Positions 1 through 7,891 of a DNA stretch of 7,891 nt are shown in pieces (positions within the stretch are counted from its first letter, which is position 1; each line of letters starts with the position of its first letter). The position numbers and the translations under genes were made by a program. The notes beneath the pieces were generated by a model. The model had not been told where the DNA came from, did not search any database, and saw only the letters and a program-made list of their open reading frames with translations. The stretch covers positions 1 through 7,891 of the forward strand of contig QMWA01000078.1 in NCBI GenBank assembly GCA_003661385.1, given 5' to 3'. The stretch is from Thermoproteota archaeon. Its GTDB lineage: Archaea > Korarchaeota > Korarchaeia > B14-G2.

Positions 1-273
1 CTTTGTTGGATTAGTTCCTGCGTTTCTCACGAATATTAAGAGTTCTCCACTTGGTAGGACTTCAACCTTGTCTATCTTGAGCAGTCCTGTAGTTTTTACA
101 CGCTTTCTCTCTATCCTTTCTTGTGTCTGTGACTGTGATGTCTTAATCCATAGGTATGTTGTGGCTGCTGCTGCTAGTGAGATTGTCGCCAGTAGTATGG
201 CTGTCAATGCTAGGCTTGTGCCTCTTCTTCCCTGTTTTCTCCGTGCTTTGGTGAGCATTATGTTTTTCTTCAT
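1..273 (-). CDS. Archaeal type IV pilin (class III prepilin), 3' end cut off by window edge
   Basis: Reading leftward from the ATG at 273, the frame stays open for 91 codons to the window edge. The N-terminus is a typical archaeal class III signal peptide. A very basic leader (K2, K3, K9, R11, R12, K13, R16, R17) ends in RRG at 16-18, with cleavage expected after G18. A hydrophobic stretch follows at about 19-43 (TSLALTAILLATISLAAAA, ending TTYLW), which would be the helix packed in the pilus core. The visible mature part is a short charged segment and then beta-like sequence (KVEVLPSGELLIFVRNAG, 69-86), as in DUF1628-type archaeal pilins. A GGTGA site lies 9 bases before the ATG, and an upstream ATG or GTG in frame is not evident. 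It is divergent from a cluster holding a platform protein and a prepilin peptidase, its likely processing enzyme. The total length is unknown. Confidence 0.85.
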   Translation of the reverse strand, partial: MKKNIMLTKARRKQGRRGTSLALTAILLATISLAAAATTYLWIKTSQSQTQERIERKRVKTTGLLKIDKVEVLPSGELLIFVRNAGTNPTK

Positions 274-282
274 TTTTCTTAC

Positions 283-287
283 TCACC
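283..287 (-). promoter_or_regulatory. Shine-Dalgarno site of the pilin gene
   Basis: On the minus strand this reads GGTGA, complementary to the archaeal 16S 3' end (ATCACCTC). It sits 9 bases before the ATG at 273, which supports that start codon. Confidence 0.55.
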
Positions 288-551
288 TAAATGTTCCCTG
301 CTCTATGGAATATTTTAAGTTTTGTGCCTGAGGGCATTTCTAGTTGTATGGCTTCGAGTTCACTTTACTGTCTGCAGAGTTTCTTTGCTGAAAGACACTA
401 GCTGCTGCTATTTTTGTATATTACATTCAGCTTGTAATTCATGTAATTCCTGAGACTTTATTTGCTCTGTGTTTGTGGGGTGTTTCTGCTTGGCTGCCAG
501 CAGCTTCCTATACTCCTGTAGCTGCTTGCTGCTTTGCTGCTCTTGATGCTG
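287..551 (-). pseudogene. Possible decayed gene, perhaps a pilin remnant, broken by stops and a frameshift
   Basis: On the minus strand a frame beginning just after a TAG at 554-552 reads as polar, helix-like protein rich in Q, K and E (for example KQLQEYRKLLAAKQK) down to a TAG at 410-408. It continues in the same frame (VSFSKETLQTVK) to a TGA at 362-360. A shift of one frame at that point continues as SELEAIQLEMPSG and then TKLKIFHRAGNI, ending with TAG at 289-287. The part from PSG to RAG (296-334) resembles residues 74-86 of the neighbouring pilin (PSGELLIFVRNAG), so this could be the tail of a duplicated pilin. No start codon or prepilin signal peptide was found. The similarity is short and could be chance, so this is a tentative call. 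Confidence 0.25.
311..318 (-). promoter_or_regulatory. Possible TATA box (TTAAAATA) for the pilin gene
   Basis: The minus strand reads TTAAAATA, preceded by the purine-rich bases AAAAC, which could be a BRE. With the usual archaeal spacing of about 26 bases, transcription would start near 288. That leaves a leader of about 15 bases holding the GGTGA site. This is based on spacing and composition only. Confidence 0.4.
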
Positions 552-553
552 CT
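521..553. repeat. Low-complexity TGCT/GCTGCT tract
   Basis: Irregular copies of GCTGCT, TGCT and TTGCTG follow each other for about 33 bases. There is no constant unit or spacer. A shorter GCTGCTGCT lies at 401-409. It reads as simple-sequence drift in a G+T-rich strand, with no function assigned. Confidence 0.5.
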
Positions 554-613
554 ATATTCTAATGTAGAAGAATGGATGCAACAATTGGATAGGCTCTAGT
601 CTGCTTGTGAATC

Positions 614-619
614 TTTAAA
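614..619 (+). promoter_or_regulatory. Possible TATA box (TTTAAA) for the platform-protein cluster
   Basis: TTTAAA touches the ATG at 619. If it is a TATA box, transcription would begin near 643, after that ATG. The first in-frame start would then be the TTG at 655, with GGGGGTT just before it. The element therefore bears on the true start of the next gene. It could also be chance in an A/T patch. Confidence 0.3.
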
Positions 620-1524
620 TGCACATGGAGCATGGGTTTAAGGGGGTTGTCCTCTTGTCTCTTGCTGTTGAAGCCTACAAGTTCTTTGGTAGGAGGACTG
701 AGGGCAGTAGGCTAGCTGGTTGGCTCACTAACAGGCTTCAGAAGGCTGCTATAAGTATGATGCCATCTGTCTACTTAGCATTAGCCATTTTTGCATCCAT
801 CTTGGCTGCGTCTGTTACTGGTATAGTTGTTCCATCGATTCTCCTGTTGCTTCCACTTGAGCTCTCATCTATAGCTAAGGTCATAGGTATAACTTCTCCT
901 GTGCTTGTTGGTCTTGTTACATTTGGTGTGTTTATGGTGTATCCTGATTTAAAGGCTAGTAGTAGGAGGGCTGATATAGATAAGAGGCTTCCTTATGCTG
1001 TAAGCTATCTTGCTACTTTGGCTAGTGCAGGTGTTTCTCCTGTTTTTATGTTCAGGATTTTGGCTAATCAGAGGGATGTTTATGGTGAGGTTGCTCGTGA
1101 GTTTGGGCTTATTCTGAGGGATATTCTCGTGTTTGGGCGTGATCTGTTGACTGCTCTTGAGAGGGCATCTAGGAGGTCTCCTTCGCTGAAGTTCAAGGAC
1201 TTTTTGGAGTCTTTTATTGCTACTGTGAGGAGTGGGGGTACTTTGCAGCAGTTTCTGGAGGCTGAGAGCGAGAGGCTTATGGAGGAGCGTAGGGTTAAGA
1301 TTAAGGAGCTTGCTGACCGTGTTGGGATGATGGCTGAGTTTTATGTGATTCTTTTTGTGGTAACTCCTCTGGTTTTCATTGTGATGTCTAGTGTTATGAG
1401 CTCTCTGGCTCCGGGGACTGCTTTGTCTGTTACAGCTCTGGTTGTGCTTTTTGCGTTTATAATGATGCCTGCTGGTGTTCTAGCGTACTCTCTGGTACTT
1501 GATGCTATGAACCCTGAGAAGTGA
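619..1524 (+). CDS. TadC/GspF-like type IV pilus assembly platform protein (single T2SF domain)
   Basis: This is an inner-membrane platform protein of the T2SF family, which couples a cytoplasmic assembly ATPase to pilin insertion or extraction. Hydrophobic segments lie at about 51-77, 90-108, 238-260 and 268-292. Between the second and third is a basic cytoplasmic helical domain (about 115-235). It opens with DKRLPYAVSYLATLASAGVS, a typical T2SF start, and includes LRDILVFGRDLLTALERAS and FLESFIATVRSGGTL. At 301 residues it has one T2SF unit, like bacterial TadB/TadC, whereas archaellum ArlJ-type proteins are about 500 residues. No second half is found beside it. The ATG at 619 has no ribosome site. 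A TTG at 655, after GGGGGTT and a TTTAAA element, is a plausible shorter start giving 289 residues. Its stop overlaps the GTG start of the prepilin peptidase gene (GTGA), so the two are co-transcribed and probably translationally coupled. Confidence 0.82.
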   Translation: MHMEHGFKGVVLLSLAVEAYKFFGRRTEGSRLAGWLTNRLQKAAISMMPSVYLALAIFASILAASVTGIVVPSILLLLPLELSSIAKVIGITSPVLVGLVTFGVFMVYPDLKASSRRADIDKRLPYAVSYLATLASAGVSPVFMFRILANQRDVYGEVAREFGLILRDILVFGRDLLTALERASRRSPSLKFKDFLESFIATVRSGGTLQQFLEAESERLMEERRVKIKELADRVGMMAEFYVILFVVTPLVFIVMSSVMSSLAPGTALSVTALVVLFAFIMMPAGVLAYSLVLDAMNPEK

Positions 1525-2288
1525 GTGGTGGTTTCTTGCAGCTGCTGGATTTTATATCTGTTGTAGCTTGTTTGTGTGCTCTTGTTGTTGCTTCTGTTCA
1601 GGATCTTAGGAGTAGGCTTGTTGATGATAGGATATGGTTTGCTTGCTTGGCTGTTGTTGTCCCTGTTGAGGTTATTCGTGTGGTTGTATGTGGTGGGCTG
1701 TGTTTGCATTTGGCTGCTATAGGGTGTGGTCTTGCTATTGCGTTGGCTTTGAAGCTTTCTGGGGTGATGGGGGAGGCTGACTGCATTGCTATTGTTGTCT
1801 GTGCTCTGGCGCTTCCTGTCTATGGGAGGGGGCCTGTCTTAGGCTTTATGGGCGTTGATGTGTTTCTTAACTCCATTTTGCTGAGCGTGTTTTCTGTGTT
1901 CTACTTCCTCGGTAGATCTTTGGTTGCCTACTTGAGGGGGGGCTTGCCGAGGGGTGTTGAAGCTTCTTTGCCTGTTAAGGCTCTGCTTCCTCTTGTAGCT
2001 TATCCAGAGAAGCTGAGTGTGCTGTTGAGCAAGAGTAGTGTGCTAGCTCCTGTAGAGGAGTTTGCTGTGGATGGTGGTGTGCGGAGGCGTGTTCGGCTTA
2101 GCTTGAGGGTTGATGTGTTTGATGGCGGGTGGAGGGAGGTTGCTGAAGAAGTGTATTCCATAACTGGAGACGTATACGTATGGTGTACTATAGGATTACC
2201 TCACATAGTTTTCATACTTGGTGGCTTTTTAGCTGCCCTTACAGTAGGCAACATAATATTTAAGTTGGTGTTCATGATACTCACTTAG
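1521..2288 (+). CDS. Archaeal prepilin peptidase (A24 family, PibD/FlaK-like)
   Basis: This is a membrane aspartyl protease that removes class III signal peptides from prepilins. Residues 10-27 are hydrophobic and lead into the first catalytic aspartate, in VQDLRSRLVDDRIW (D28 is the likely residue). Further membrane segments lie at about 40-55, 58-78, 88-100 and 112-132. The second aspartate is D87 in GVMGEADCIAI, the position of the GxGD motif, written here as GEAD. Residues about 140-218 form a soluble, charged insert. The end (VYVWCTIGLPHIVFILGGFLAAL) matches the closing W-P-hydrophobic segment of FlaK/PibD proteins. At 255 residues it has a usual length for the archaeal family. The GTG start overlaps the platform gene's TGA by 4 bases. 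The divergent prepilin at 1-273 is an obvious substrate candidate. Confidence 0.82.
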   Translation: MSGGFLQLLDFISVVACLCALVVASVQDLRSRLVDDRIWFACLAVVVPVEVIRVVVCGGLCLHLAAIGCGLAIALALKLSGVMGEADCIAIVVCALALPVYGRGPVLGFMGVDVFLNSILLSVFSVFYFLGRSLVAYLRGGLPRGVEASLPVKALLPLVAYPEKLSVLLSKSSVLAPVEEFAVDGGVRRRVRLSLRVDVFDGGWREVAEEVYSITGDVYVWCTIGLPHIVFILGGFLAALTVGNIIFKLVFMILT

Positions 2289-2291
2289 AGG
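2288..2291 (+). promoter_or_regulatory. GAGG ribosome site bearing on the next gene's start
   Basis: GAGG overlaps the stop of the prepilin peptidase gene. It is 2 bases from the TTG at 2294 but 8 bases from the in-frame TTG at 2300. By spacing the second TTG is favoured, which would shorten the protein by two residues. Confidence 0.35.
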
Positions 2292-2293
2292 CG

Positions 2294-3253
2294 TTGAGCT
2301 TGCAGCAGGGGTTCCTTTCCTGGCTAGCATCTCGGATAAGTGAGCTGCTTAGTAGGCTTCCTCTTCCAGAGGCATTGAAGTCGCCTATCATGTTTGTGAT
2401 GTTCATAGGTGTCTTGGTTTCCTTGGTCGTGTTCTTGTACTCTCTTGCCTCGTACTTAAAGGCTAGACGGGCTGTAACTATGGCTAAGGAGCGTGAGCTT
2501 CCTCCTCCACCGAGAGCTCCTGGAGCTCCTCCTCCACCTAAGCCTGAGCCTTCTCCTTCCTTGCTGTCTGAGGTCTTATCTGGTGAGCCTAAGGCCACTA
2601 AAGTTGGTGTTGGGGAAGAGTTAATAGGTGGTGATAGGGAGGTTGTCGGGGAGCTAGGTATGGGTGAACGCTCGACATCACCCTCAGAGTTGGATATAGA
2701 GGAGCTTTCTAAGAGGCTTAGTGAGCTTAAGCGCGAGCTTGAGTCTATGGCTGAGCAGCCTCCGCCTCCTTCTCCTGAGAAGCCTGTGTCTGAGCTTCCT
2801 CCTCCACCTCCTCCTTCAGCTCCGGCTCCCTCTGAGGAGCCTCTGCCCGTTGCTAGGGAGCCTGAGAAGCCAGCTGAAGCTGAGAAGCCTCCTGAGCTGG
2901 CGCCTGTGGAGGCTAGGTTTGAGCAGGTGCTTAAGGAAGCTGAACCTGAGCCTGCTGTGGCAGAGGCGAGGGCTGAAGCCCCTAAGGAGCCTGGCTATGT
3001 GAAGGCTAAGATCAAGGCATTAGAGGCTGCTTTGAAGGAGCTTGAGAGGCTTAGAGCAGCTGGTGAGGTGGGTAGTGAGAGCTATAACTCCCTAAGAGAT
3101 GAGATATCCTCTCAGATCGAGTTGTTGAGGAAGGATCTTGAAGCTATTGAGAAGAGGCGTAGGCTTGAGGAGCTTATGAGGAAGAGAGAGGAGTATGCTG
3201 CTAAGCTGAAGGAGATTGAGGAGGAGATTAGGAGAATTCAGTCTACTTTATAG
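2294..3253 (+). CDS. Single-TM, proline-rich coiled-coil protein, possible pilus-assembly scaffold
   Basis: I do not recognise a named family for the whole protein. An amphipathic N-terminal stretch (1-30) is followed by one strong membrane segment at about 31-54 (IMFVMFIGVLVSLVVFLYSL) and then KARR, so the rest is probably cytoplasmic. Two proline-rich linkers (about 69-88 and 156-203, runs of four to six prolines) flank a short heptad-like helix (131-153). The end (235-319) is a long charged coiled coil. Inside it, LERLRAAGEVGSESYNSLRDEI (250-271) has the helix, G-turn and SxExY/F helix pattern of SHOCT-like and related helical hairpins. It starts 5 bases after the prepilin peptidase gene, so a role in the same pilus machine is inferred. 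Its layout recalls crenarchaeal ArlX (one N-terminal TM and a cytoplasmic coiled coil), but no sequence relation can be claimed. The start is TTG at 2294 or 2300. Confidence 0.75.
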   Translation: MSLQQGFLSWLASRISELLSRLPLPEALKSPIMFVMFIGVLVSLVVFLYSLASYLKARRAVTMAKERELPPPPRAPGAPPPPKPEPSPSLLSEVLSGEPKATKVGVGEELIGGDREVVGELGMGERSTSPSELDIEELSKRLSELKRELESMAEQPPPPSPEKPVSELPPPPPPSAPAPSEEPLPVAREPEKPAEAEKPPELAPVEARFEQVLKEAEPEPAVAEARAEAPKEPGYVKAKIKALEAALKELERLRAAGEVGSESYNSLRDEISSQIELLRKDLEAIEKRRRLEELMRKREEYAAKLKEIEEEIRRIQSTL

Positions 3254-3262
3254 GGGGTAAGC

Positions 3263-3544
3263 TTGTCTAAGAGGAGGAGGGAGAAGGCTGAGTCAGCTAA
3301 GGAGGCTCCTCTGCTTAGTGAGTCTGTTGAGGTTAGGGTGCTTTCTCCTGAGATAGTCAAGGCAGTTGAGAAGGCAGTTTCTAGGATGAAGGTGATAACT
3401 CCTTACTCTGTCGCCTCGTCGCTTAAGATACCAATGAGTACTGCGAAGAAGGCTTTAAGGGCTCTTGAGGATGAGGGGAAGATCTCTCCTGTAGTTAAGA
3501 GTTGGAAGATAGTGATCTATGCTCGTGGCAGAGGGGGTGAGTAG
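3263..3544 (+). CDS. rps25e: Small-subunit ribosomal protein eS25 (S25e)
   Basis: This is a 30S subunit protein of the S25e family, found in eukaryotes and in TACK archaea. A lysine/arginine-rich tail (1-15) precedes a winged-helix domain. VLSPEIVKAVEKAVSRMKVITPYSVA (about 26-51) holds the first helix and the family's conserved 'K-hydrophobic-hydrophobic-TP' turn. SSLKIPMSTAKKALRALEDE (52-71) gives the next two helices, and KISPVVKSWKIVIYAR the wing. Length (93 residues) is usual for an archaeal member. It starts with TTG, 4 bases after GGGGGT and 9 bases after the coiled-coil gene, so it probably shares that transcript. The winged helix alone could suggest a DNA-binding regulator, but the basic tail and the VITP turn favour eS25. 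Confidence 0.8.
   Translation: MSKRRREKAESAKEAPLLSESVEVRVLSPEIVKAVEKAVSRMKVITPYSVASSLKIPMSTAKKALRALEDEGKISPVVKSWKIVIYARGRGGE
3536..3540 (+). promoter_or_regulatory. Shine-Dalgarno site (GGTGA) of the cyclophilin-like gene
   Basis: GGTGA within GGGGGTGA lies 10 bases before the TTG at 3551, inside the last codons of the eS25 gene. It supports TTG as the start codon. Confidence 0.5.
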
Positions 3545-3550
3545 CCTCGC

Positions 3551-3931
3551 TTGCACTACATTGAGAAGTATCCTCTCTACTTTATGACTCCACGTGGTGA
3601 TATAGCTACTGGAGAGGTTTTACGGTATCTGTCTCCGATGACTGCTGACAAGCTGTTTCATCTCCTGCCGATAAGGAGTATGGTGATAAGGAGGGGCTGC
3701 CTGCTGGTTATAGAGAAGGATGTGCGGGAGGGGGTTGAGAGGGGGAAGAGGAGCTTGTCTACTGGTGAAATAGCCTACTCTCCACTATCTAAGGCTATAA
3801 TGGTTGCCTTGTGTGATGTTGATGTATCTCATCCGGTGAACCCGCTGGGTAGGGTTATAGAGAACTTATCTGCACTAGAGAGGCTTCAAACTGGAGAGTC
3901 CATAGTGCTGCATGTTGAGCTTATGCCCTAG
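3551..3931 (+). CDS. Cyclophilin-like fold protein (TM1367 / DUF369-type)
   Basis: This is a small predicted cytoplasmic protein of 126 residues. Its second half has the signature of the archaeal and bacterial cyclophilin-like family (PF04126): STGEIAYSPLSKAIMVALCD (70-89), matching the family's 'GDVaYwPpgnAlaiff', then HPVNPLGRVIENLSALERL (94-112), matching 'sPvnviGri'. The first half (IEKYPLYFMTPRGDIATGEVLRYLSP) forms the opening beta strands. The family resembles cyclophilin in fold, but prolyl isomerase activity has not been generally shown, so no reaction is assigned. It follows eS25 after 6 bases and is the last gene of the left cluster. Its TAG and that of the opposite acetyltransferase gene lie in one CTAG. 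Confidence 0.72.
   Translation: MHYIEKYPLYFMTPRGDIATGEVLRYLSPMTADKLFHLLPIRSMVIRRGCLLVIEKDVREGVERGKRSLSTGEIAYSPLSKAIMVALCDVDVSHPVNPLGRVIENLSALERLQTGESIVLHVELMP
3928..3931. other. Shared CTAG: stop codons of two converging genes
   Basis: CTAG is its own reverse complement. TAG at 3929-3931 ends the cyclophilin-like gene on the + strand, and TAG read from 3930 to 3928 ends the acetyltransferase gene on the - strand. No room for a separate terminator exists between them. Confidence 0.9.
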
Positions 3932-4488: not shown

Positions 4489-5538
4489 GTGGTTGAGCAG
4501 TTTTTTAAAGTTAGAGAGCATGCCACTGTACGTGGTATACCAACGTTCTGGGTTGAGCTTGAGCCTGATATGCAAGCTAAGTTCAGGTCTCTGCTATCTA
4601 CAATAAGGTCTCAGAACCTTATTGCTGTTCTAAGTGAAGACCAGGGGCTGGGAAAGATATCTATACTCAGGGCGCCAAGAGCAAGGAGGAGGTCTAGGCT
4701 GTTTTACGCAGCTCTCCTGGTGGTGACGCTGGCTACTGTATGCTACTCTGGCTTCATACATGTAAAGAGCTTCAACGAGTCTCTCAGGGAGCTGGGCAGA
4801 GAGCCTGTACACGTCTTATCTAACACCGTTGCATTTGCTGTGAGCCTGTTTTTCATACTAGGGTTACATGAGCTTTCCCATATGTTCGCCTCTGTTAAGC
4901 ATGGTAAGAGGCCTACGCCTCCGATGTTCATACCTGGCCCCCCTCCACTGGGTACTCTAGGTGCTGTGATACTCTCTGAGGAGCCTCTTGTTGACATGGA
5001 TGAGGTTCTAGATACTGGCTTCTCTGGGCCGCTAGCTAGCTTTCTGGTCTCCTTGGCCGTGCTGGCGGTAGGGCTGCCAGCGTCTGTGAGGGTTCCCGAA
5101 GAGGTTGTAGCAAGGTGGATTGCAGCTAAGAAGGCTCAGCTTATACCTACTCCACTAGCCTACCAGCTTGTCGAGATGCTAGTGGCTAGAGGATCTGGAG
5201 CATACCTTCTGTCTCCTGTCGCCTGGGCTGGGTGGGCTGGCCTCTACGTGACTTTCCTCAACCTCCTTCCGATTGGGCAGCTTGATGGAGGCCACATAGT
5301 GTACTCTCTTTTCCATGGCAGGGCTTCTGCTCACCTGCTGCTGAGTGCAGCTGGCTTGCTCGTGCTCTTCTACACTAACCCTGCGATGGCTATACTCGTA
5401 CTTGCACTACTGCTTATGGCTCCTTCTCACCCTCCTCCGCTGGATAGAGTTAGCAAGGTAGCTGGGAGGAGAAGGGCCATATACCTGGCTGCCTATGCTC
5501 TGATGCTGGCTTTATCCTGCCCTATTCCAGCTAGCTGA
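4489..5538 (+). CDS. Site-2-type intramembrane zinc metalloprotease (peptidase M50)
   Basis: This cuts substrates inside the membrane. The soluble N-terminal domain (about 1-65) holds FKVREHATVRGIPTFWVEL and a strand pair ending KISILRAP, as in archaeal members with this extra domain. Membrane segments follow at about 71-90, 110-130, 178-197, 236-258, 282-312 and 328-344. The zinc motif HExxH is HELSH (127-131). GPPPLGTLGAVI (150-161) is the conserved loop after it. GFSGPLASF (177-185) matches the 'tGPiAGf' helix. The third metal ligand is D266 in NLLPIGQLDGGH (258-269). All catalytic elements are intact, so it should be active. No PDZ domain is seen. The GTG start keeps the complete N-terminal domain; no ribosome site precedes it. 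It heads a three-gene rightward cluster. Its substrate is unknown. Confidence 0.9.
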   Translation: MVEQFFKVREHATVRGIPTFWVELEPDMQAKFRSLLSTIRSQNLIAVLSEDQGLGKISILRAPRARRRSRLFYAALLVVTLATVCYSGFIHVKSFNESLRELGREPVHVLSNTVAFAVSLFFILGLHELSHMFASVKHGKRPTPPMFIPGPPPLGTLGAVILSEEPLVDMDEVLDTGFSGPLASFLVSLAVLAVGLPASVRVPEEVVARWIAAKKAQLIPTPLAYQLVEMLVARGSGAYLLSPVAWAGWAGLYVTFLNLLPIGQLDGGHIVYSLFHGRASAHLLLSAAGLLVLFYTNPAMAILVLALLLMAPSHPPPLDRVSKVAGRRRAIYLAAYALMLALSCPIPAS

Positions 5539-5572
5539 GGTGTTCTGCTTGTCAGCTGAGCTAGCTGAGGTG
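5529..5572 (+). repeat. 14-base direct repeat, AGCTAGCTGAGGTG, two copies 30 bases apart
   Basis: Exact copies lie at 5529-5542 and 5559-5572, and the flanks are also similar (the bases following are TTCTGCT in one and CTCAGCT in the other). The first copy spans the protease stop and provides a GAGGTG ribosome site. The second lies inside the next gene, where it codes for ELAEVL. The 30-base period keeps frame, as expected of a small tandem duplication or of chance reuse of AGCT-rich words. Confidence 0.5.
5537..5542 (+). promoter_or_regulatory. Shine-Dalgarno site GAGGTG that decides the next gene's start
   Basis: GAGGTG overlaps the protease TGA and lies 6 bases before the TTG at 5549. The GTG at 5540 is itself part of this site, so the TTG is the better start. 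Confidence 0.5.
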
Positions 5573-5968
5573 CTCAGCTCCTTTCAACACGTCTCCTGGG
5601 GGGAGAGCAGCACACACTTTCTCCTCAAAATTCTGTCGCTGATGAAGCTGTGGAAGTCTGGCTTCAGGTGCTTTTCGTTTGAGAGAGAGCTTATGGGGCT
5701 TAGGCCAGATATACTTGGAATGAGGAGATTTAATCAGGTGGTTGAGGTGGCCTGGGTTGAGTGTGGTGGCATGAATAAGAGCTGGAGGGAGGTCAAGGCT
5801 GTTGGAGGCAAGCTTGCCAGAGAGGTAACTAGGAGAGCTAAGCTGAAGTGTAGGGTGGTCTACATATGGGCAGTTTCCAGTAGGGTCTGTGCTCCTGAGG
5901 GCATTCAGGTGTGGTTCTTCCCAGAGCACCTGCTGTCTCTGGCAGCTAGCATCTTAAGCTGGGTGTAG
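5549..5968 (+). CDS. Uncharacterised protein with a weak PD-(D/E)XK nuclease-like pattern
   Basis: I do not recognise this protein. Numbered from the GTG at 5540 it has 142 residues; the GAGGTG ribosome site favours the TTG at 5549 (139 residues). It opens with a helix (about 5-16) and a second helix (26-39). FSFERELMGLRPDILG (45-60) and NQVVEVAWVE (65-74) follow, an arrangement like the 'E, PD, then ExK' core of the PD-(D/E)XK fold (E48 or E50, D57, E69). The usual lysine two residues after E69 is alanine (A71); K86 or K91 in the next helix could stand in for it. The end has a strand (CRVVYIWAVS, 104-113), another (GIQVWFF, 121-127) and a helix. No membrane segment is seen. The gene lies between the protease and a degenerate ATPase-like gene, with gaps of only a few bases. 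Nuclease activity is only a possibility. Confidence 0.6.
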   Translation: MSAELAEVLSSFQHVSWGESSTHFLLKILSLMKLWKSGFRCFSFERELMGLRPDILGMRRFNQVVEVAWVECGGMNKSWREVKAVGGKLAREVTRRAKLKCRVVYIWAVSSRVCAPEGIQVWFFPEHLLSLAASILSWV

Positions 5969-5971
5969 CCT

Positions 5972-7546
5972 TTGAGAGCTCGTTGGAAGCTGCCCTTGGC
6001 AGCAGCTCTCGCTGCAGCTGCCTTAGCTCTGTCTCAGCGTGGTGGCATCGATATCTTGCTGGCGGCTTGGACTCTATTCTGTCTTGCTCCAGCTATTCTC
6101 ATCCTGCCTCCAGGTAAACTGCTAGCTGGCTTGACGCTGTCAACTATAGTATTCCTGCTTGTGGGCATCGTAAGCCACAGTATAGCCGCCATTATGAGCT
6201 TTTCTTCTCTTATACTCCTCAAGGTGCTCCCAATAGGGGGTAAAACGGAGCCTAAGGGAGGTTTGTCTGCAGCAAGGCGCCTCTTGAGGGCTGGCTTGGC
6301 GCTGGCGCCTCGTAGAGGAGAAGGCGAGGTGCTGCAGCAAGTCCCCTCAATCTCCCAGCTCACGCTGCGCTGGAAGCCGAGCTTGTCTATCGTTGGGGAG
6401 AGCAGAGTCCACGCGATCAAGCTCCTGGAGTACCTCATACTTCCTCTGACAGGAGGGCTTAGGCAGCCTATGGTCGTGTTTGATGTCACAGGAAAGCTCT
6501 CTGGATTGGCTGCGGTTAAGCAGGCTGCTGGGAGGGTTAAGGTCATAGATGGCAGGCAGATAGACTTCACGTACTATGAGCCTCTAGACAAAGTGGGGTT
6601 CATACAGCTGCTCTCCAGCTTGCTTGGCGATGTAGATGTGGGCGCTGCTAGAGTTGCTGTGGAAGATGGATTAGCTGCTTTCCTTGAGGCTTCTAGCCGC
6701 GAGTCTACTCTGAAGAGCATAGCTGAAGTCCAAAGCAGGCTTGGCTACTCCCCTCTTGAGGACCTGCTTGACCTGAGTAAGGTGAACGTGATAGACTTAT
6801 CTGCAGTCATAGACCCCAAGTTGAGGGGGGCTTTCCAGAGGTTAATAGACTTGCAGCTGTACCGGCTTACTAAAATGGGTTTATCTGCCCCCGTAGCTCA
6901 GCCTCTAGATCTGCTATCGCAGAGAGCTGATGAGGTGCTGAAGGGCACGCTGATGGAAGTCTTATCCAGGATAGAGGAGGAAGCAGGCCTCGTGATAGCT
7001 CTATCAGCCTACTCAGACTTCGAGTTCACAAGCTTGACCAGAGATCTCCTGATATCCGTGAGATCAGTGCCAAGAAGCCTCTCCAGAATGTTAGATTCTT
7101 TAAGGGAAGGCTTATCCAAGGAGCTAGCTAGGCTACCTGCATGGGAGGCACTCTATGTTGCTAGAGAGCCTAGTGGTCTTCAAGCCTATAAGGTCAGCTT
7201 AACTTCAGCAGACTTATCTCTGGTTCCTCAGCCTGCTGTCCATGCGCAGCCAGCTCGAGTGAAGGCTGTGGTAGGTGCTCTGAGGTCTCTTGGCAGGAAG
7301 GAGCTTGAGGCTGCTCTGAGGCTCATATCGCGGGCCAAGGAGGCTCCAATCCCAGAGCATGAAGCGAAGGCTGTTGCCCAAGTGAGGAAGCCTATGAGGC
7401 TCCTTAACCTCTTAGTGGAGCTAGGCATCTTAGACTGGGACCTAGTCTTCACGGAGAGGGGGGAGCCTAAAGCTGTCTTCAAGTCCACGCCTCTCGCTGA
7501 AGCAGTCCTAAGGGAGCTACTTCCAGAAGAACCTTATAGCCTCTAG
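5972..7546 (+). CDS. Membrane-anchored, degenerate HerA/FtsK-like P-loop protein (pseudo-ATPase)
   Basis: A basic start (MRARWK) and three or four membrane segments (about 7-21, 26-45, 50-85) are followed by a soluble part of about 430 residues. The soluble part follows the order of a HerA/VirB4-type motor domain. SIVGESRVHAIKLLEYLI (139-156) sits where Walker A (GxxxxGKS/T) belongs. MVVFDVTGKLSG (167-178) matches the 'iviDxxGEy' strand, and NVIDLSAVIDPKLRGAFQRLI (272-292) the 'vIDLS...R' strand and helix. GLVIALSAYSDFEFTSLTRDLL (339-360) matches the 'iataQ.p.dl' region. The Walker A lysine and serine/threonine are absent, and no hhhhDE Walker B is seen near 305-320, so ATP hydrolysis is unlikely. 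Residues about 472-515 look like a winged helix. TTG at 5972 follows GGTG by 6 bases. It may be a structural or DNA-tethering partner; the family assignment is inferred from pattern order. Confidence 0.65.
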   Translation: MRARWKLPLAAALAAAALALSQRGGIDILLAAWTLFCLAPAILILPPGKLLAGLTLSTIVFLLVGIVSHSIAAIMSFSSLILLKVLPIGGKTEPKGGLSAARRLLRAGLALAPRRGEGEVLQQVPSISQLTLRWKPSLSIVGESRVHAIKLLEYLILPLTGGLRQPMVVFDVTGKLSGLAAVKQAAGRVKVIDGRQIDFTYYEPLDKVGFIQLLSSLLGDVDVGAARVAVEDGLAAFLEASSRESTLKSIAEVQSRLGYSPLEDLLDLSKVNVIDLSAVIDPKLRGAFQRLIDLQLYRLTKMGLSAPVAQPLDLLSQRADEVLKGTLMEVLSRIEEEAGLVIALSAYSDFEFTSLTRDLLISVRSVPRSLSRMLDSLREGLSKELARLPAWEALYVAREPSGLQAYKVSLTSADLSLVPQPAVHAQPARVKAVVGALRSLGRKELEAALRLISRAKEAPIPEHEAKAVAQVRKPMRLLNLLVELGILDWDLVFTERGEPKAVFKSTPLAEAVLRELLPEEPYSL

Positions 7547-7891
7547 GCTTATCTTAAGCCCCCACTCTATATCTCCGACGTGCACCTCAATGCAAGCTCT
7601 CTCATCATAACCTATCTCAGCCAGCTCCTTGTACACTGCTCTCCAGTCTATCTCACCTGCTCCAACAGCCAGGTGGAGGTCGCTTCCATCTCTGAGGTTG
7701 TCGTGTACATGTAGGTGTACTAGCTTGTGGTAGAGGTTTGACACATACGACCTGAGCTTCTCCATATCAGACCCCTGTATGCAGGCATGTCCTACATCTA
7801 GCGTGAACATGAGCTTCGGTATCCTGTTGGTTATGTCAACTAGGCTCTTTACAGACTTGAAGAAGCCGTGGTCAACGTTCTCTATGGCAAC
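7517..7891 (-). CDS. Sugar-phosphate isomerase/epimerase-like TIM barrel protein, 5' end outside window
   Basis: The frame is open from the right edge to a TAG at 7519-7517, giving the last 124 residues. It belongs to the xylose-isomerase-like TIM barrel superfamily (AP endonuclease 2 type), whose members bind a divalent metal. The visible ligand motifs, in order from the first visible residue, are VAIENVD (E4), FTLDVGHA (D32, H35), LVHLHVHDN (H61, H63, D64), then DLHLAVGAGEIDW (71-83) and ACIEVH (E102). The motif HVHDN followed by H, then G-x-G-x-I-D-W, is typical of this group. The reaction and substrate cannot be told from the C-terminal part; sugar epimerisation or isomerisation is more usual for this motif set than DNA repair. 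Its last ten codons overlap the end of the opposite-strand pseudo-ATPase gene (7517-7546). Confidence 0.82.
   Translation of the reverse strand, partial: VAIENVDHGFFKSVKSLVDITNRIPKLMFTLDVGHACIQGSDMEKLRSYVSNLYHKLVHLHVHDNLRDGSDLHLAVGAGEIDWRAVYKELAEIGYDERACIEVHVGDIEWGLKISLEAIRFFWK

Follow-up and report, generated by a model that had tools for sequence, protein, structure and literature searches.

A membrane-anchored HerA/FtsK-type protein without catalytic motifs in Korarchaeia and its putative role as a scaffold

HerA is the DNA translocase of the NurA-HerA resection complex, where it works with a nuclease, NurA, that has an RNase H fold. Dead members of motor families are often regulatory or structural subunits. 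The locus described here raises the question of whether a membrane protein with the layout of a HerA-type motor, and without the residues of its active site, still belongs to the HerA/FtsK superfamily, and what such a protein may do. We analysed a stretch of 7,891 bases (hereafter the window), which is a complete contig (G000:C78) in a draft genome from the archaeal class Korarchaeia; 25 classmates were among the genomes searched.

The gene of interest, which we term pseudo-HerA, had been proposed to be a maintained gene on the basis of its long open frame, a ribosome site and tight spacing. The frame encodes 524 amino acids, 3 bases separate its TTG start from the stop of the upstream open reading frame (5540-5968), and a GGTG at 5961-5964 is, by eye, a modest match to a ribosome site. 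The gene and the parts of its product outside the core are as follows.

5972..7546, plus strand: membrane-anchored pseudo-HerA gene, TTG start, 524 aa; orthologs in 24 of 26 class genomes, HMM-HMM match to HerA
5987..6217, plus strand: N-terminal membrane segments, about residues 6-82; hydropathy peaks and helices in a low-confidence model, a conserved family feature
7232..7543, plus strand: C-terminal extension, possibly a winged helix; shared only between the window protein and its nearest relative, no significant Pfam match

The predicted membrane anchors were recovered as two strong hydropathy segments (residues 28-46 and 50-68), to which the low-confidence AlphaFold model adds a helix at residues 6-19, and most relatives carry two to four such segments by hydropathy. 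The predicted winged-helix-like tail fared less well: the helix-helix-strand-strand order in the low-confidence model is weakly in its favour, and the extension is not family-wide. In the largest genus, g2, the protein ends with a segment, CxxC...LCP, that may bind metal (for example L047 8805-9920, L053 9743-10840 and L056 6726-7793), a segment that the window protein lacks.

A HerA-type core by profile comparison

We found that residues ~138-413 of the window protein map onto the HerA core in HMM-HMM comparison, which bears out the originally noted HerA-type order of elements. The strongest match was obtained with six divergent members against 49 pooled HerA-like ATPases of the same class (probability 95.7, P 1e-8, score 75.5, 267 columns). 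A 20-member family profile scored 59.7 (P 1.1e-6) against the same pooled set and 49.7 (P 1.7e-5) against a profile of 30 HerA-like proteins, while a profile of only the window protein and its nearest relative (genome G021) reached 49.9 (P 1.7e-5), and the six divergent members scored 51.3 against a membrane-anchored HerA subfamily. For comparison, 60 column-shuffled versions of the 20-member profile reached at most 17.3 against the same HerA profile that gave 49.7, 24 unrelated neighbour families reached at most 25.1, and an ABC-ATPase family (C23), used as a positive control, scored 42.8. Single HerA subfamily profiles gave weak or partial scores against the whole family, the strong ones being obtained only with pooled HerA profiles, which limits the comparison. 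Collinearity of the alignment extends over the core from its P-loop strand as far as its C-terminal end, including the 'L..L..GEA' region, and a search with a simple family profile HMM retrieves a true HerA (E 2e-6).

We considered whether the protein could have another alpha/beta fold whose strand order resembles that of HerA by chance. Such a reading would be consistent with the lack of a library match for individual sequences: none of the 21 members matches Pfam DUF87 or HerA_C at E <= 1, the window protein has no Pfam match, no single pseudo-HerA sequence matches any chain in the PDB, and searches of NCBIfam and PADLOC gave no meaningful match. The AlphaFold model made with one homolog (pLDDT 36) is likewise unusable, and the fold rests on profile comparison. 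However, a collinear alignment of ~265 columns that scores far above the shuffled and unrelated controls, together with two profile HMM searches that retrieve HerA-type ATPases, makes a chance resemblance improbable. By its predicted RecA-like core and HerA-type strand order, the protein can be placed, from sequence, in the HerA/FtsK superfamily.

Catalytic positions and distribution of the family

The original prediction read the P-loop position as GESRVHAI, with no GK(S/T), and saw no Walker B acids. Alignment to the HerA profile agrees on both counts. The positions concerned are listed below.

6395..6418, plus strand: degenerate P-loop position GESRVHAI, residues 142-149; the HerA GKS falls opposite H147-A148-I149 in the profile alignment
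6473..6493, plus strand: second core strand VVFDVTG, residues 168-174; D171 and G174 retained and nearly invariant in the family
6785..6802, plus strand: NVIDLS strand, residues 272-277; among members S277 is invariant and D275 nearly so
6881..6898, plus strand: Walker B position LSAPVA, about residues 304-309; acidic residues absent

The HerA segment 'AATGAGKSN' is aligned to 'GESRVHAIK' in the window and to 'GPDLRSSAR' in another member (G009), and 'LEEAH' is aligned to about 'SAPVA' and to 'ATALS', respectively, with the Walker B 'EE' opposite ~A306-P307 of the window protein. Neither the arginine of GRKxG nor the sensor glutamine of SQRP is found at the HerA-aligned positions of pseudo-HerA. 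Accordingly, of the 'ATQ-like' strand described at the outset, the strand itself is present at residues 335-345 (EEEAGLVIALS) and the glutamine is missing. The sole GK[ST] of the window protein, in IGGKTE near residue 90, was rejected as an alternative P-loop: it is located in the linker that follows the membrane segments, and orthologs do not conserve it.

An intact Walker A in orthologs would have spoken against an inactive family. A direct protein search returned a single full-length relative, in G021 (JAOZGB010000016.1), 28% identical over its full length, and stepwise profile searches extended the family to strong full-length or near full-length matches in 24 of the 26 Korarchaeia genomes; no match was obtained in two genomes, G018 and G025, whose completeness is 70-71%. 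No member, across several genera and families, carries GK[ST] at the P-loop position or Walker B acids (hhhhDE/EE) at the aligned position, so that the catalytic motifs are lost in every one. In G020 the gene is split by contig ends, and the piece presumed to be N-terminal (L041) has IRSSPSEAEEA at the P-loop position. Collectively, the predicted fold and the dead active site are well supported at the level of sequence.

Outside the class, a profile search of 368 other archaeal genomes found no member. Weak partial matches in four of them (G055, G113, G133 and G260) are not family members, the best outside match (L114) being an ATP-competent membrane protein of HerA/VirB4 type with intact GSTGSGKS and VDEAH motifs. 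Viral contigs contained no relative of pseudo-HerA or of the protein encoded upstream of it.

Could ATP still be used, through an unconventional site or by a contribution in trans to the site of a neighbouring subunit? The second-strand aspartate and the IDLS strand are indeed kept. On the other side, the lysine, the serine/threonine, the Walker B acids, the arginine and the sensor glutamine are all lost, and nothing is constant at the P-loop position across the family, so that we regard residual ATP use as hardly likely. Even less can be said for a gene in decay, to which the missing catalytic motifs might point: dN/dS is 0.11-0.26 among 18 pairs of close members (Nei-Gojobori; values approximate, with dS > 0.6 in eleven pairs), presence in the class is near-universal, the context is conserved and the frames are open throughout the family. 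For the family, these data already contradict decay, a very remote reading, and uphold the maintained gene that was first proposed. With near class-wide orthologs, no GK[ST] in any of them, this range of dN/dS and shared synteny, the catalytic loss is ancestral and maintained.

Gene neighbourhood and the upstream nuclease-like protein

Next, we examined the genes around pseudo-HerA for indications of its role. In the window these are the following.

4489..5538, plus strand: peptidase M50 membrane protease, immediately upstream of the 142-aa gene; not conserved beside the cassette elsewhere
5540..5968, plus strand: 142-aa protein with a predicted PD-(D/E)XK nuclease fold, directly preceding pseudo-HerA, also in the closest relative
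7517..7891, minus strand: xylose-isomerase-like TIM barrel gene, partial; a syntenic marker

The 142-aa protein is 40% identical to its counterpart in G021 (150 aa), adjoins pseudo-HerA in both genomes, and shares with that counterpart the conserved stretches WGE...HFLLKI, FExExxGLRPDIL and VExAWVECGGMxKSxxEVK. No relatives were found in the other 24 class genomes, which leaves the partner in 2 of 26, or in the phages and plasmids searched. AlphaFold modelled it at pLDDT 73.5 with a helix-strand-strand-strand-helix-strand order, and Foldseek and VIA-align matched this model mainly to PD-(D/E)XK proteins, including restriction enzymes (best Foldseek E 1.3e-3). The closest predicted folds are EndoMS/NucS, XisH and Hjc-type PD-(D/E)XK proteins, with Z scores of 7.3 for EndoMS, 6.8 for AF1548, 5.9 for XisH and 5.5 for Hjc, all below 8, a range in which matches may merely reflect common arrangements. 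The RPD aspartate (D57) and E69 are conserved. An alanine, A71, stands where a lysine is usual, which makes nuclease activity uncertain; the conserved K80 and K86, located in the next helix or ahead of it, might take the place of that lysine.

This nuclease-like partner, which the original prediction had not picked up, is the strongest clue to the function of pseudo-HerA. In both genomes that carry the pair, which represent two families, pseudo-HerA also has the extra C-terminal domain. At locus L005 (3256-5918) the pair is closely preceded by two related genes in divergent orientation, both for probable secreted proteins (412 and 417 aa). A gene resembling Hjc-family Holliday junction resolvases directly follows the pseudo-HerA fragment of G020 (L018, G020:C5, 728-1120), and is a second, independent nuclease neighbour.

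The window also holds, at 1-3931, a probable type IV pilus region with a pilin-like N-terminus (minus strand), a T2SSF protein, an A24 prepilin peptidase with an archaeal C-terminus, a proline-rich coiled-coil membrane protein, an S25-like winged-helix protein and a cyclophilin-like protein. A link between pseudo-HerA and these pilus genes was rejected, as the arrangement is not found in other genomes.

Elsewhere in the class the neighbours are different. In most genomes pseudo-HerA stands tail to tail with lipid genes and not DNA genes: among f2 loci whose downstream flank is available, all but G020 have it convergent to the same geranylgeranyl reductase-like gene, followed, where visible, by the same radical SAM gene with an HMPTM zinc ribbon. 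A rhomboid-like gene sits in between in G021. The reductase-like and radical SAM genes are absent from the window, where the TIM barrel gene that lies ~9 kb downstream of orthologs comes directly after pseudo-HerA, its relative orientation unchanged. Directly upstream of other members is a PPDK_N-like gene or one for a NEW3-like secreted membrane protein, and the partner differs in other genera.

Such neighbours could mean that the same fold serves the membrane or envelope, acting on lipids or surface proteins and not on DNA, with the nuclease incidental in two lineages. The convergent geranylgeranyl reductase-like gene of the f2 loci and the position of several members directly 3' of the NEW3-like or PPDK_N-like genes are in line with this. 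However, convergent genes are not co-transcribed, the surrounding 20 kb are largely collinear so that adjacency may be inertia, the lipid genes are not next door in the window, and those HerA relatives whose function is known act as DNA motors. We consider an envelope function doubtful, though the most credible of the alternatives to a scaffold that handles DNA.

A putative scaffold at the membrane

Taken together, a membrane anchor, a non-catalytic RecA-like core and a neighbouring nuclease make up an anatomy that suits a scaffold more than a motor. We lean, by a modest degree, towards a class-wide, ancestral, membrane-anchored HerA/FtsK pseudo-ATPase that serves as a non-catalytic scaffold and here docks nuclease and DNA at the membrane. 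Under this hypothesis, the HerA-type RecA-like core would have been kept as a fold while the residues that bind and hydrolyse the nucleotide were lost, and the protein would act at the membrane in a structural or tethering role. In the window lineage it would dock the co-encoded PD-(D/E)XK-type nuclease and DNA there, and it may oligomerise with itself or, possibly, with an ATP-competent HerA relative of the same cell. The basic role of the family need not involve the 142-aa nuclease, because members without it keep the core.

The window genome does encode ATP-competent HerA relatives, including a membrane-anchored one, and G009 has a separate intact HerA locus (L059). Mixing with them is suggested by their presence in the same genomes, which is weak evidence because this presence is universal. 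A more elaborate possibility is unlikely, in which a class-defining pseudo-HerA would assemble into mixed rings together with an active HerA relative and bring a dedicated PD-(D/E)XK nuclease to the membrane; if true, such a mixed-ring DNA-processing complex would be of a kind not described in the literature searched. Upstream of the class's intact membrane-anchored HerA is a gene resembling relatives of transcription factor B, and a nucleotide-kinase-like gene and one for a small conserved membrane protein are also close by (L120 993-1721, L122 1022-1777, L123 3471-4127 and L084 3-803).

Compared with known systems, pseudo-HerA shares with HerA (DUF87/HerA_C) the RecA-like core, the strand order, the C-terminal core region and a place alongside a nuclease. 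It differs in having N-terminal membrane segments, in lacking Walker A, Walker B, the arginine and the sensor glutamine, and in its partner, which is PD-(D/E)XK-like whereas NurA has an RNase H fold; no nurA, rad50 or mre11 cluster was seen among the gene contexts listed (up to 20 kb). CedB and CedD of Saccharolobus are paired membrane HerA-type paralogs, both described as ATPases (PMC11868833). Like other archaeal membrane HerA/VirB4 ATPases and pseudo-HerA, they place N-terminal membrane helices before a HerA-type core, but they are ATPases with an extra N-terminal domain, while pseudo-HerA is motif-less and has no such domain. No CedA-type channel or CedA1 pilin was recognised by eye among the contexts listed. 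DndH and related systems contain inactive P-loop domains with a proposed role in DNA binding within a nuclease system (PMC10853773), and are alike in being kept without catalytic motifs; these domains, however, are of SF2/SF3 helicase type in large restriction systems, whereas pseudo-HerA is a HerA-type membrane protein.

The literature searched held no report of a catalytically dead member of the HerA clade. The pairing with a nuclease-like protein opens a direct test of its role. Because the family is near-universal in the class, is under purifying selection and has no member in 368 other archaea, pseudo-HerA is a candidate for a class-specific core function of this deep archaeal class.
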